The translations under genes and the position numbers were made by a program. From Candidatus Sungiibacteriota bacterium (GTDB lineage Bacteria; Patescibacteriota; Minisyncoccia; Sungbacterales; JACQCQ01): a DNA stretch of 42,835 nucleotides. How positions within the stretch are numbered: position 1 is the first letter of the stretch; each line of letters begins with the position of its first letter. Shown here one piece after another: positions 1,436-6,464 of the stretch. The notes under the pieces are model-generated. The model saw nothing but the letters and a program-made list of their open reading frames with translations, had not been told where the DNA came from and searched no databases. The DNA lies in contig JACQCQ010000008.1 in the NCBI GenBank assembly GCA_016201505.1, positions 1-42,835 on the forward strand, read 5' to 3'.

Positions 1436-2029
1436 TTAAACAAAATGGGAAATAAATGAATCCCTATGAATTGGCAATGGAGCGTTGCCTTTCAGCATTT
1501 CAATATGCGCCCGCGTGCCGTAGCCTTTGTGCCGATCAAAATCCCAACCGGGGAATTTTTTGGCCATACGCACCATATATCGATCGCGGCGAATTTTGGC
1601 AATAATTGAAGCCGCCGCGACAACCGGAATCTTTGCGTCTCCGCCGATGACAATTTTATGCGGCAGATCGGCGCGCATGACGAGCGCCCCGTCTAAAAAT
1701 ACAAAGTGCGGCCGCTGCGCGCATTTCAAAATTAACCGCGCTGCGCCTCGATAGGTCGCCTCTTGAATATTCACGCGGTCAATGACTTTTGCTGAAACAT
1801 ACGTCTGATGCCAGACGAGTCTCGGATGATTGACGATGAACTGATACCAGAGCTCGCGTTTTTTGGGGCTTAGCTGTTTTGAATCCTTAATTTTCCCGAG
1901 TTCCTTCGTCCAAAAGCGAAAGCCTTTTGGCGCAATCACGAGTGCCACTGAGACTGGCCCGGCCAAAGGGCCCCGTCCCGCCTCATCAATTCCGCCGATT
2001 AACATCCGCTTCATGAATTCATCATACAT
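1436..2029 (-). CDS. rnhB: Ribonuclease HII
   Basis: This 197-residue protein has the RNase HII signature GGIDEAGRGPLAGP near its N-terminus (catalytic Asp-Glu pair), a further acidic site at FLDGAL, and the RDRYM and FDRHKGYGT segments of the family. The enzyme cuts the RNA strand of RNA-DNA hybrids and starts removal of misincorporated ribonucleotides. Three in-frame ATGs (2029, 2014, 2005) precede the conserved core. The first has a weak AAGGA upstream and is used here. The gene is divergent from dnaE, with about 50 bp between them holding start signals for both. An RNase HI gene lies at 21840. Confidence 0.93.
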   Translation of the reverse strand: MYDEFMKRMLIGGIDEAGRGPLAGPVSVALVIAPKGFRFWTKELGKIKDSKQLSPKKRELWYQFIVNHPRLVWHQTYVSAKVIDRVNIQEATYRGAARLILKCAQRPHFVFLDGALVMRADLPHKIVIGGDAKIPVVAAASIIAKIRRDRYMVRMAKKFPGWDFDRHKGYGTRAHIEMLKGNAPLPIHRDSFISHFV

Positions 2030-2066
2030 TCAGTCCTTGTCCACTACCAACGATCGCTCCGAGGCC

Positions 2067-2081
2067 TATACTATAGAAGCA
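2067..2081 (+). promoter_or_regulatory. -10 element close to the dnaE start
   Basis: TATACT at 2067-2072 lies 9 nt before the dnaE ATG and no Shine-Dalgarno sequence fits between. A transcript from it would begin almost at the start codon. This matches the near-leaderless pattern seen before thrS, the 8583 gene, ndh and the 32825 gene. Confidence 0.45.
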
Positions 2082-5000
2082 ATGAGCCAAAGATTTGTCC
2101 ATCTTCACGTGCATTCTCACTATTCTCTTTTAGACGGCCTAACCAAGCTGGATGAATTAATCGCGCGCACAAAAGAGCTCGGCATGGATGCAGTCGCACT
2201 CACCGATCACGGCAATTTGTACGGCGCGATTGAGTTTTATCAGAAAGCCAAGAAAGCCGGCATAAAACCGATCATTGGCTGTGAGATGTATATTGCCTCG
2301 CGCGCGATGGAGGATAAAGAGCCGGGACTCGATGATAAACGCTTTCATTTAACGGTGCTTGCGCGTACCAATGAGGGCTATCAAAATCTCATCAAACTTG
2401 TCACCGCCGCGCATTTAAAAGGCTACTATTATAAGCCGCGGATTGATCACAAAATTTTGCGCGAACACGCCGCGGGCCTAATCGCGCTCTCGGGATGCCT
2501 GAATGGCGAAATTCCGCGCGCCATTCGGGCGGGCCAGATGGAGCGCGCGGAAGAATTAATCCGCGAATACCAAGAAATTTTTGGCAAGGAATATTTTTAT
2601 TTAGAACTGGCTCCAAAACGAAGTTACGAAGAGAAAGAGGGCGTGAATGACGCACTCATTAAACTTTCGAAAAGTCTGGGGGTGCCGGTTGTCGCAACCA
2701 ACGACGTCCACTACTGTCGTCCTGAAGATAAAGAAGCGCAAGATATTCTAGTCTCCGTCCAAACAGGCGCAAGATTCGAAGATGAAAACCGACTTACTAT
2801 GCGTGAAGATAACTATTCTATTCGCTCTCCGGAAGAGATGGCCTCTTTTTTCACCCATATCCCGGAAGCCATTGAAAATACTGCCCGCATCGCCGACTCA
2901 ATTGAAGTTAAAATTGAACTGGGGAAAAATAAAATACCCCCATTCGAGACTCCCGAAGGCTTTACCCAGGAATCGTACTTGGAAAAACTCTGTCTCGAGG
3001 GCATAAAAAATCGCTACGCCATTTCGGCAGGTGATCTAAAAAATTCAAAGGAGGCGGGTGTGGCCGCCGTTCGCGAGCGGTACAATTATGAACTCGAAAT
3101 TATCAAAAAAACCGGCTTCACCTCGTATTTTTTGGTCGTCCAGGATTTTGTAAATTGGGCGCGTGCCCAAAACATCATCGTCGGCCCGGGCCGCGGATCG
3201 GCTGCCGGCTCTTTAATTTCCTACGTTTTAAATATCACCAACATCGATCCGCTCCATTACAATCTCCTCTTTGAGCGCTTCTTAAATCCCGAGCGCATTG
3301 CGATGCCTGATATCGATCTTGATTTTGCCGACACGGGCCGAGATCAGGTCATTGACTATGTCCAAAAAAAATACGGTCGGGATAAGGTGGCACAGATTGT
3401 GACCTTCGGGACCATGGCGGCGCGGGCGGCCATCCGCGACACGGGCCGGGCGCTTGGCATGTCGTATTCGTTCTGCGATCAGATCGCGAAATTAATTCCT
3501 TTTAATCCGACACAGGGCATGAAAGAGGGCTGGCTGATTCAGTGTTTACGTGACGTCGAGGAGCTAAAAAATTTATATGAGCGAGATGCGGAAGCCAAGC
3601 GGCTTATTGACGCGGCACTGAAATTAGAAGGCGTCGTGCGACACGCCTCGATTCATGCCTCGGGTCTCGTGGTTGCCCCCGAGCCGCTTGTTCAGTACGT
3701 CCCGCTACAATACGCCACTCGTGCGAAAGGAGATGAAAAAGAGGAGGTTTTAGTTACTCAATATGACATGCACGGCGTTGAAGCCTTGGGTCTTTTGAAA
3801 ATGGATTTTCTGGGCCTTCGAAACTTGTCGATTATTGAGCGGACCGTTGAAATTGTCCGTCAAACCCGCGGTATTGAAATTGACATTGATACATTGGCAC
3901 TCGATGACAGGCCGACGTATAAACTTTTTCAGGAAGCAAAAACAACAGGAGTGTTTCAGTTTGAGTGCCTAGCCGGCGACACTATTGTTTCCAATACAAC
4001 AATCGAAAAACTTTATAAAAAAGGTAAACCGAGTTTACGTTCTGTGTTCCTGGATAAAGGAACGGTGCACAACAATAAAGTCCTTAAAATAATGCGAAGT
4101 GGCAAAAAAGAGATTTATGCACTGATTGCTGACGATGGAAGGTACATAAAAGCCACCATAAATCATAAATTTTTGACTGCAGACGGATGGAAAAAACTTG
4201 AAAATATTCGACCGGGAGAAAAAGTGCTTACTAAAATCAGGGCGAAATCTGAGATTTGGAATACATGTCAGATATGCAATAGGCAAATTGATGGGCAAAA
4301 AAATGGAAAAAGTAGATTCTGCTATCGCTGTTCAGCGTCATTTTATAGCAACCCCACGAAAGAAATGTCGCGGACGAAGATGTCTTCATCGAGAAGAAGA
4401 TTCTTCCTCAATGGAGGGCAGCCTTGGAATCTGCATAAGACGAGTGCTACAAACAATATCAATATCCTTTACGAAAATGGGAAGAAAATTTCTAAGGCCC
4501 TGACTGGTAAAACACTAGAAATGAGAGTTGGAAAAATGGAAGCAGAAAAATGGCGGCTGCGTCTTCAGCAACGTAGGCGTGGGCAAAATAACCCCATGTA
4601 CGGTAAACCTTCTCCTCATCGCAAAGGAGGATACCGCGCTGATCTTGGCCATTATGTACGGTCGAACTGGGAGGCAGACTTTGCTAGAATTCTCAACCTC
4701 CGTAAAGTTGAATACGCATACGAGCCACAACGTTTTGAGCTTAAGCGAAGAGACGGGAGTATCTGTTCTTATACGCCGGATTTCTATACTCCGCACGATG
4801 GCACATTCTATGAGATTAAGGGCTGGTTCCACGATGCAGACAAGGAAAAAATTGAACTTTTTAAAAAGCAACATCCCGACCGACGGTTTGTTTTGATCAG
4901 TGCAACAAGATTCGCTGAACTAGCTCTGCAATATAAAAATTTGATTGCTTGGGAATGCCCCGAGATTCCTGCTGGGTTTGGGTGGAGAGTGGTGAAAGAA

Positions 5001-6464
5001 ATTTTACCCGCAGGAAAAGAAATGACATATGACATTGCAATGGCATATCCCGCGAATAATTTCATTGCTAACGGCTTTGTGGTGCATAACTCATCCGGCA
5101 TGAAGCGCTACTTAAAAGAACTAAAACCAACCGAGCTGGAAGATTTAATCGCCATGGTCGCCCTCTATCGCCCCGGCCCGATGGAGTATATCCCTTCATA
5201 CATCAATCGCAAGCATAAAAAAGAGACCGTTACGTATTTGCATCCGAAGCTGGAGCCAATTTTGGGTCCGACCTACGGCATCGGCGTCTATCAGGAGCAG
5301 ATGATGCAGATCGCGCGGGATCTGGCCGGATTTACGCTCCCCGAAGCCGACACGCTGCGAAAAGCCATCGGCAAAAAGATTAAATCGCTACTGGCCGAGC
5401 AGGAAGAAAAAATGATCACTGGAATGATTAAAAATGGAATTAGCAAAGAAACGGCGGCGGCTGTATGGGGACTGTTTCCTGCTTTTGCACGATACGGCTT
5501 CCCCCGAGCTCACGCAGCTTGCTACGCCTTGGTCGCCTATCAAACAGCCTACTTAAAGGCCCATTTTCCCGCCGAATACATGGCGGCGCTGATGACGGCC
5601 GAAGGGTTTGAAATCGAGCGCGTCGCTTTCCTGATTGATGAAACGAAAGCCATGGGGATTGAGGTGTTGGCACCCGATGTCAATGAAAGTTTCGAGACGT
5701 TTACGGTCGTTGATAACGGGAACGAAAAAGAGAAAGAGGCAAAAATTCGATTTGGCCTTTCGGCCATCAAGAATGTCGGATCAAATATTGTCGAATCAAT
5801 TATTGCTTCGCGAAAAAAGAGCGGAAGATTCGTTTCGCTGACCGATTTTATTGAGCGGCTACCGGTAAAAGATTTAAACCGAAAATCAATTGAAGCGCTC
5901 GCCAAGTGCGGCGCACTCGACTCGCTCGCCGAGCGTAATCAAATTTTAGCAAACATGGACGTATTGCTTGAGTTTGCCCGAAACCGCGAACGCGAGGCCC
6001 TGTCAAACCAAAATTCATTGTTCGGCGGCGAGAGCGCGACTTTTTCAACGCTTAAGTTGCAGGAGGTGCCGCCAGCGGATAAACGCGAGCGGCTGCAATG
6101 GGAAAAAGAATTGCTCGGTCTGTATATCTCGGAGCATCCACTCGCCTCATTTATCCAGAAATTAAAAGCCAGTGACGCCATCCCCATTCGCGGACTTGAT
6201 GCCGAATCAATACGAGGCCGCGCGATTTCTATTGGGGGCGTGGTTTCCGGCATTAAAAAGATTATAACCAAAAGCGGCGAATCGATGTTATTTGTCACGG
6301 TCGAAGACCCAACCGCGAAAACCGAGGTTCTGGTATTTCCCTCGCTCTTAAAATCAAACCCGACGATCTGGCAGATGGATAAAATTTTGCTGGTTCGCGG
6401 CAAGGTCTCGGAAAAAGACGGCGAGCCGAAATTGCTTTGCGATCAGGTGAGCGAGCTAGTCTAA
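2082..6464 (+). CDS. dnaE: DNA polymerase III alpha subunit with intein
   Basis: The replicative polymerase catalytic subunit. The ATG at 2082 is chosen because MSQRFVHLHVHSHYSLLDGL is the family's PHP-domain start; the open frame upstream is antisense to rnhB. The precursor is 1460 residues: a PHP domain (about 1-280), then the polymerase core with GPGRGSAAGS and the catalytic MPDIDLDFAD motif, fingers with ALYRPGP, and helix-hairpin-helix plus OB-fold regions at the end (TVEDPTAKTEVLVFP). A 375-residue intein at 629-1003 splits the conserved FQFE/SSGMKRYL segment, so the spliced product is about 1085 residues. No PolC-type proofreading domain is present. Confidence 0.96.
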   Translation: MSQRFVHLHVHSHYSLLDGLTKLDELIARTKELGMDAVALTDHGNLYGAIEFYQKAKKAGIKPIIGCEMYIASRAMEDKEPGLDDKRFHLTVLARTNEGYQNLIKLVTAAHLKGYYYKPRIDHKILREHAAGLIALSGCLNGEIPRAIRAGQMERAEELIREYQEIFGKEYFYLELAPKRSYEEKEGVNDALIKLSKSLGVPVVATNDVHYCRPEDKEAQDILVSVQTGARFEDENRLTMREDNYSIRSPEEMASFFTHIPEAIENTARIADSIEVKIELGKNKIPPFETPEGFTQESYLEKLCLEGIKNRYAISAGDLKNSKEAGVAAVRERYNYELEIIKKTGFTSYFLVVQDFVNWARAQNIIVGPGRGSAAGSLISYVLNITNIDPLHYNLLFERFLNPERIAMPDIDLDFADTGRDQVIDYVQKKYGRDKVAQIVTFGTMAARAAIRDTGRALGMSYSFCDQIAKLIPFNPTQGMKEGWLIQCLRDVEELKNLYERDAEAKRLIDAALKLEGVVRHASIHASGLVVAPEPLVQYVPLQYATRAKGDEKEEVLVTQYDMHGVEALGLLKMDFLGLRNLSIIERTVEIVRQTRGIEIDIDTLALDDRPTYKLFQEAKTTGVFQFECLAGDTIVSNTTIEKLYKKGKPSLRSVFLDKGTVHNNKVLKIMRSGKKEIYALIADDGRYIKATINHKFLTADGWKKLENIRPGEKVLTKIRAKSEIWNTCQICNRQIDGQKNGKSRFCYRCSASFYSNPTKEMSRTKMSSSRRRFFLNGGQPWNLHKTSATNNINILYENGKKISKALTGKTLEMRVGKMEAEKWRLRLQQRRRGQNNPMYGKPSPHRKGGYRADLGHYVRSNWEADFARILNLRKVEYAYEPQRFELKRRDGSICSYTPDFYTPHDGTFYEIKGWFHDADKEKIELFKKQHPDRRFVLISATRFAELALQYKNLIAWECPEIPAGFGWRVVKEILPAGKEMTYDIAMAYPANNFIANGFVVHNSSGMKRYLKELKPTELEDLIAMVALYRPGPMEYIPSYINRKHKKETVTYLHPKLEPILGPTYGIGVYQEQMMQIARDLAGFTLPEADTLRKAIGKKIKSLLAEQEEKMITGMIKNGISKETAAAVWGLFPAFARYGFPRAHAACYALVAYQTAYLKAHFPAEYMAALMTAEGFEIERVAFLIDETKAMGIEVLAPDVNESFETFTVVDNGNEKEKEAKIRFGLSAIKNVGSNIVESIIASRKKSGRFVSLTDFIERLPVKDLNRKSIEALAKCGALDSLAERNQILANMDVLLEFARNREREALSNQNSLFGGESATFSTLKLQEVPPADKRERLQWEKELLGLYISEHPLASFIQKLKASDAIPIRGLDAESIRGRAISIGGVVSGIKKIITKSGESMLFVTVEDPTAKTEVLVFPSLLKSNPTIWQMDKILLVRGKVSEKDGEPKLLCDQVSELV
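3966..5090 (+). other. DnaE intein with PD-(D/E)XK-like homing endonuclease
   Basis: The segment starts at Cys1 (CLAGDTIV, block A), has block B with TINHKFLT, and ends with the C-terminal splicing blocks (YDIAMAYPANNFIANGFVVHN), followed by Ser as the +1 residue. All splicing residues expected of a class 1 intein are visible. Between the splicing halves lie a Cys4 zinc-finger-like motif (CQIC...CYRC, intein residues about 100-121), a NUMOD3-like motif (NNPMYGK, about 206) and a nuclease-like region with RSNWEADF, YTPDFY and YEIKGW (about 232-287). The last motifs fit PD-(D/E)XK or Vsr-like nucleases. No LAGLIDADG motif is seen. The nuclease frame is intact, so it may be active. Confidence 0.9.

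Follow-up and report, generated by a model that had tools for sequence, protein, structure and literature searches.

Inteins are usually described as carrying homing enzymes of the LAGLIDADG or HNH class, and Vsr-like enzymes accompany some split inteins. Phage T7 endonuclease I is a small, freestanding, structure-selective Holliday junction resolvase. A review of intein homing families names LAGLIDADG, HNH, His-Cys box and GIY-YIG (PMC7765530), and two reviews give PD-(D/E)xK and EDxHD as group I intron enzymes (PMC3943268, PMC3984707). We found no description of an intein-embedded endonuclease I-type nuclease among the open-access texts that were searched; papers on crAss-like and Jug phages were considered as precedents and set aside, as the PDDEXK genes there are separate from inteins. 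The plan of an intein with a homing enzyme is already known, and an endonuclease I-type nuclease within one is apparently unreported in open-access text. Here, we describe such an element in the replicative polymerase gene dnaE of a CPR bacterium.

The window, meaning the whole stretch of DNA analysed, comprises 42,835 nt from Candidatus Sungiibacteriota bacterium (assembly GCA_016201505.1, contig JACQCQ010000008.1, positions 1-42,835, forward strand). Its dnaE open reading frame spans 1863-6464 with a probable start at the ATG at 2082 (MSQRF...), and is interrupted, between ...GVFQFE upstream and SSGMKRYLK... downstream, by an intein of 375 residues by translation. The parts of the gene are as follows:

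2082-3965, + strand: dnaE N-extein, from the inferred start codon; Pfam PHP and DNA_pol3_alpha matches in the ORF
3966-5090, + strand: intein, 375 aa, C1 to H374-N375, in the conserved DnaE motif FQ[LF]E/SxGM (PF14890, 2.5e-15)
3966-4241, + strand: N-terminal splicing (HINT) part, residues 1-92, with C1 and T64-x-x-H67
4266-4331, + strand: Cys4 zinc-finger-like motif, residues 101-122, its four Cys invariant in 19 homologues
4557-4607, + strand: NUMOD3 DNA-binding motif, residues 198-214 (PF07460, 7.9e-4)
4614-4970, + strand: T7 endonuclease I-like PD-(D/E)XK domain, residues 217-335 (PF05367, 3.7e-7)
4671-4820, + strand: span of the predicted catalytic residues, invariant in 50 nuclease domains (codons of E236, 4671-4673; D272, 4779-4781; E283, 4812-4814; K285, 4818-4820)
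4971-5090, + strand: C-terminal splicing (HINT) part, residues 336-375, ending H374-N375 (PF14890, TIGR01443)
5091-6464, + strand: dnaE C-extein, from the +1 Ser through the stop codon; Pfam DNA_pol3_finger, HHH_6 and OB-fold matches

The element is, from its sequence features, a class-1 (Cys1/Ser+1) intein, probably mobile, whose HINT domain is interrupted by a putative DNA enzyme at the customary position. A sequence-only reading had recognised intact splicing blocks around a 375-residue intein at FQFE/SSGM, and these boundaries proved exact. The Intein_splicing match covers intein residues 11-375, both the intein_Nterm and intein_Cterm models of NCBIfam exceed their cut-offs, and all class-1 splicing residues are in place (C1, block B T64-I-N-H67, H374-N375 and S+1). 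The N-terminal HINT part resembles solved DnaB and RecA mini-inteins, and a model of the whole intein returns solved mini-inteins as its top folds (E 5e-8), with T7 endonuclease I lower in the list. When the intein is removed, the joined DnaE flanks align as one stretch to the intein-free DnaE of 50 relatives. The interrupted dnaE is the only DNA_pol3_alpha gene of a genome rated 100% complete, and a splicing-dead intein would therefore probably be lethal; because there is no second DnaE, the intein very probably splices actively. This arrangement shares with class-1 inteins that carry LAGLIDADG or HNH enzymes (e.g., PI-PfuI) the HINT fold, Cys1, TxxH, His-Asn and +1 Ser, as well as a nuclease placed between the N- and C-terminal splicing parts, but the window intein instead has an endonuclease I-like PD-(D/E)XK domain, a Cys4 finger and NUMOD3.

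Base composition varies along the contig. Within the intein, GC content falls to 38% over its first half (positions 4001-4500), versus 48-53% in flanking dnaE. At the contig start, positions 1-950 reach 58-66% GC versus about 38-53% over the next 7 kb. An ORF there (218-916, + strand) resembles the C-terminal portion of large serine recombinases, is without a Pfam match and ends at a tRNA-Ile gene (871-943, - strand); this region may be the border of an integrated element.

By its sequence and modelled fold, the intein nuclease is a member of the phage T7 endonuclease I group, a narrower assignment than generic PD-(D/E)XK. The Phage_endo_I (PF05367) match, over residues 230-310, scores 30.3 bits when the intein alone is scanned, above the curated cut-off of 29.1, and 27.6 bits, slightly below it, when the whole DnaE is scanned. 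PHROGs assigns residues 224-308 to a Holliday junction resolvase family (3.6e-15), and a single-sequence search of the PDB lists T7 endonuclease I at 2.9e-5. With a profile of 50 nuclease domains, taken from DnaE inteins and phage contigs, the PDB matches are T7 endonuclease I at 1.3e-17 and then archaeal Bax1 at 5.6e-5. Only seven columns are invariant in these 50 domains (E236, Y269, P271, D272, F273, E283 and K285). The motifs RSNWEADF, YTPDFY and YEIKGW carry the PD-(D/E)XK residues E236, D272 and E283-x-K285, which the profile alignment places opposite those of the T7 endonuclease I motifs. The AlphaFold2 model of the nuclease domain (pLDDT 92.3, pTM 0.84) was compared with the PDB using Foldseek, and T7 endonuclease I accounts for each of the five best folds (E 1e-3 to 4e-3, probability 0.97-1.00, TM 0.36-0.41), where the low TM-scores could perhaps reflect the domain swap of the T7 chain. 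Since the sequence-family, PDB-sequence and fold evidence are independent and concordant, the assignment is not due to chance. The two enzymes have in common the catalytic Glu...Asp...Glu-x-Lys, the YTPDF and E-x-K-G motifs and the domain length; unlike T7 endonuclease I, the window nuclease sits in an intein and is preceded by sequence-recognition modules. The first of these modules has the spacing C101-x2-C104-x14-C119-x2-C122, which is unchanged across all 19 homologues described below, and a few of these inteins give weak Pfam zinc-ribbon matches; metal binding by the finger is putative. The second, NNPMYGK, is the NUMOD3 motif, matched by Pfam in 16 of the 19 inteins (best 9.1e-10), and Phage_endo_I is likewise matched in 16/19.

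The sequence-only reading had named a Cys4 motif, a NUMOD3-like part and a PD-(D/E)XK-like nuclease in place of LAGLIDADG. Each of these stands, the nuclease now being refined to T7 endonuclease I-like, and the profile search that had been suggested for this region recovered T7 endonuclease I with the acidic/Lys site intact. A nuclease of some other homing class (LAGLIDADG, HNH, GIY-YIG, His-Cys, EDxHD/Vsr-like or I-Ssp6803I-like) is highly improbable. I-Ssp6803I and the EDxHD homing classes do have a PD-(D/E)XK-type active-site architecture (PMC3943268), broadly shared with T7 endonuclease I, and both I-Ssp6803I, from a tRNA group I intron, and the EDxHD enzyme I-Bth0305I use such a site in homing. 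Both, however, are group I intron enzymes, and neither appears among the profile PDB matches or the top 50 folds. Neither Pfam nor NCBIfam gave a match to the competing classes: LAGLIDADG, HNH and GIY-YIG profiles are absent from the window intein and from the families listed for the 19 members.

A scan of GTDB contigs with a three-member intein alignment revealed 18 further full-length copies at this DnaE motif; two of these copies are also among the relatives of the window. Twelve are in CPR hosts, five in Chloroflexota (Anaerolineae) and one in an Acidobacteriota bin. The insertion point is FQxE|S-x-G-M in CPR versus FQxE-G/S|S-G-M, one codon later, in Chloroflexota and Acidobacteriota, with Ser always at +1. 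The intein is rare; 3 of the 380 genomes taken from across the phylum have it, as do 3 of 188 closer relatives, the genome itself being counted in both. Intein-free alleles, which the sequence-only reading had proposed to look for, are common: the site is uninterrupted in 50 of the 52 relatives with a DnaE match, and it is empty in G001, a member of the same family with the nearest DnaE by tree. That reading had also held this to be an uncommon intein-nuclease pairing in a CPR polymerase. The CPR host agrees with its relatives and the rarity is borne out across the phylum, but the pairing extends beyond CPR, as it recurs in Chloroflexota and the Acidobacteriota bin, and similar split inteins occur in phages. 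Searching the 380 genomes with the degenerate motif VFQ(L/F)E-Cys returned the three known members and two chance matches, and no other intein family at this DnaE site in CPR. Two of the loci (L005 and L010) have DnaE genes with different inteins at other sites, and L025 and L035 have unusually long C-exteins (890 and 1111 aa), which suggests further inteins within them.

Counting that of the window, the 19 copies are all open and without stops, and every one retains H374-N375 along with C1, H67, the four finger cysteines and the catalytic set. Conservation within the intein is highest in the nuclease, with a mean pairwise identity of 64% versus 53% for the N-terminal HINT part, and 42 of its 116 columns are invariant. 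Most copies are too divergent for dN/dS, and the single usable pair (L029/L030) gives 0.056 for the nuclease and 0.057 for the N-terminal splicing part. The low dN/dS and the conservation fit a nuclease that is still in use. A relic that splices while its nuclease is catalytically inactive is very unlikely, given that the four catalytic residues and four cysteines are invariant in 19 copies over three phyla, and that the nuclease has evolved no faster than the splicing domain.

The distribution of the intein bears on how it is inherited. Within CPR, the inteins share a mean identity of 63% versus 55% for the DnaE flanks, and between Acidobacteriota and Chloroflexota 53% versus 39%; the flank values are approximate, since some sequences include further inserts. 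In the intein tree the window is sister to L021 (support 100/99), whereas in the DnaE tree it groups with L022 and L024 (support 96/95). AU tests of this conflict, on groups named post hoc once the trees had been seen, gave p 0.0495 with the intein data and 0.066 and 0.010 with the DnaE data. We regard this conflict as moderate support for transfer of the intein. Gains and losses were also counted along the DnaE tree (7 changes), but this count was dropped because empty-site genomes had been sampled only among the relatives of the window.

A nuclease that no longer drives homing, in an intein inherited mainly vertically, would explain part of these observations, its fold being kept to support splicing or for cleavage in junction processing or repair. 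There is partial agreement between the two trees, intein and DnaE (L022 with L024, and L029 with L030), T7 endonuclease I itself resolves junctions, and the strong purifying selection, together with the lack of degenerate or mini-intein forms in the 19-copy set, is unlike the decay to be expected once an intein is fixed. The patchy presence of the intein, the empty site of the nearest relative and the greater similarity of inteins than of host proteins between phyla argue against this explanation, which we consider unlikely. The filling of an intein slot in phages by an unrelated HNH enzyme also argues that homing is the shared job.

This slot lies in a phage tail-component gene of HK97-gp10 type, a name that comes from a Pfam match in L161 and extends to the other contigs by alignment of the same site. 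In two IMG/VR phage contigs (L041 and L042), the gene contains an intein that is split over two adjacent frames, the downstream frame beginning at, or immediately next to, the stop codon of the upstream frame and encoding a Cys motif, NUMOD3, an endonuclease I-type nuclease, the C-terminal part of the intein and the C-extein. At this site L161 and L199-L201, which are apparently one phage, as well as L202 and L203, have the same split intein with an HNH domain in place of that nuclease. A further split intein interrupts an apparent terminase large subunit gene in L160, named from reading the sequence, as the frame is without a Pfam terminase match; here the nuclease is fused to the N-terminal intein half and the C-terminal half opens a new, overlapping reading frame. 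These phage loci are:

L041, 4298-5744, and L042, 4821-6296: gp10-like split inteins whose C-terminal half bears a T7 endonuclease I-like nuclease
L161, 2075-3318, L202, 2998-4268, and L203, 2012-3416: gp10-like split inteins with HNH on the C-terminal half
L160, 2323-5054: phage gene split by an intein, apparent terminase large subunit

Judged by alignment, the allelic gp10-like intein shows a nuclease swap in one slot, endonuclease I-type against HNH. The nuclease tree groups the 19 enzymes of the DnaE inteins in one clade (100/98) within freestanding phage nucleases, and the L160 nuclease falls elsewhere, outside this clade. A single origin of all intein-borne endonuclease I-type nucleases was rejected (AU p 0.0025). 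Inteins and this type of nuclease have thus come together on more than one occasion, and a homing enzyme unrelated to it can replace it. Repeated pairing and HNH replacement provide the strongest indirect support for a homing role.

The same domain occurs in freestanding nucleases of phages and CPR, among them L039, L040, L070, L104 and L154, and several of these have Cys fingers or NUMOD3 as well; they differ from the window nuclease in lying outside inteins. The nearest phage examples, L039 and L040, are 45-47% identical to it. No group I intron was found at Rfam cut-offs near the phage nucleases (16 loci), which are therefore freestanding rather than intron-borne within the reach of Rfam. 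Related freestanding Cys-finger nucleases of this type occur in three CPR genomes, each of a different family: L154 (1480-2307, - strand), L155 (overlapping L004) and L156 (overlapping L006). Two of the three lie directly 3′ of tRNA-Thr(TGT), and the third has a tRNA-like read-through ahead of its ORF, across a run of N; this tRNA-adjacent position is possibly a conserved homing locus.

Taken together, these comparisons make it likely that the window element is a mobile intein whose homing enzyme combines a Cys4 finger, NUMOD3 and a T7 endonuclease I-type nuclease, and that this enzyme descended from freestanding phage nucleases. After translation, the intein would excise and ligate both DnaE halves, a step that must happen because the interrupted DnaE is the only one in the genome. 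The freed intein would then bind an intein-free dnaE through its finger, NUMOD3 and nuclease domain, and the site formed by E236, D272, E283 and K285 would cut this empty copy with metal ions. Repair templated by the occupied copy would insert the intein. As for the nuclease lineage, its probable source is freestanding homing-type phage nucleases that combine Cys fingers and NUMOD3 with the same domain, and these source nucleases would be related to the junction-resolving T7 endonuclease I. A broader proposal, slightly less probable still than mainly vertical inheritance, is that these junction-resolvase kin constitute a further class of intein homing enzyme, captured independently several times (DnaE, gp10-like, terminase-like), which may keep activity on branched DNA. 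If so, one protein could both cut the empty allele and help to resolve the recombination intermediates, or could target replication forks.

For the preferred reading of a mobile, homing-competent intein, the gp10-like phage site, with its exchange of HNH and endonuclease I-type nucleases in one slot, offers a direct test of modularity. A structure-selective resolvase fold might become sequence-specific by the addition of Cys-finger and NUMOD3 modules, and the intein offers splicing and cutting parts that are as yet unused. A contiguous chromosomal intein with an endonuclease I-type nuclease, conserved over three phyla, shows that the recruitment of nucleases by inteins is freer than published family lists indicate.
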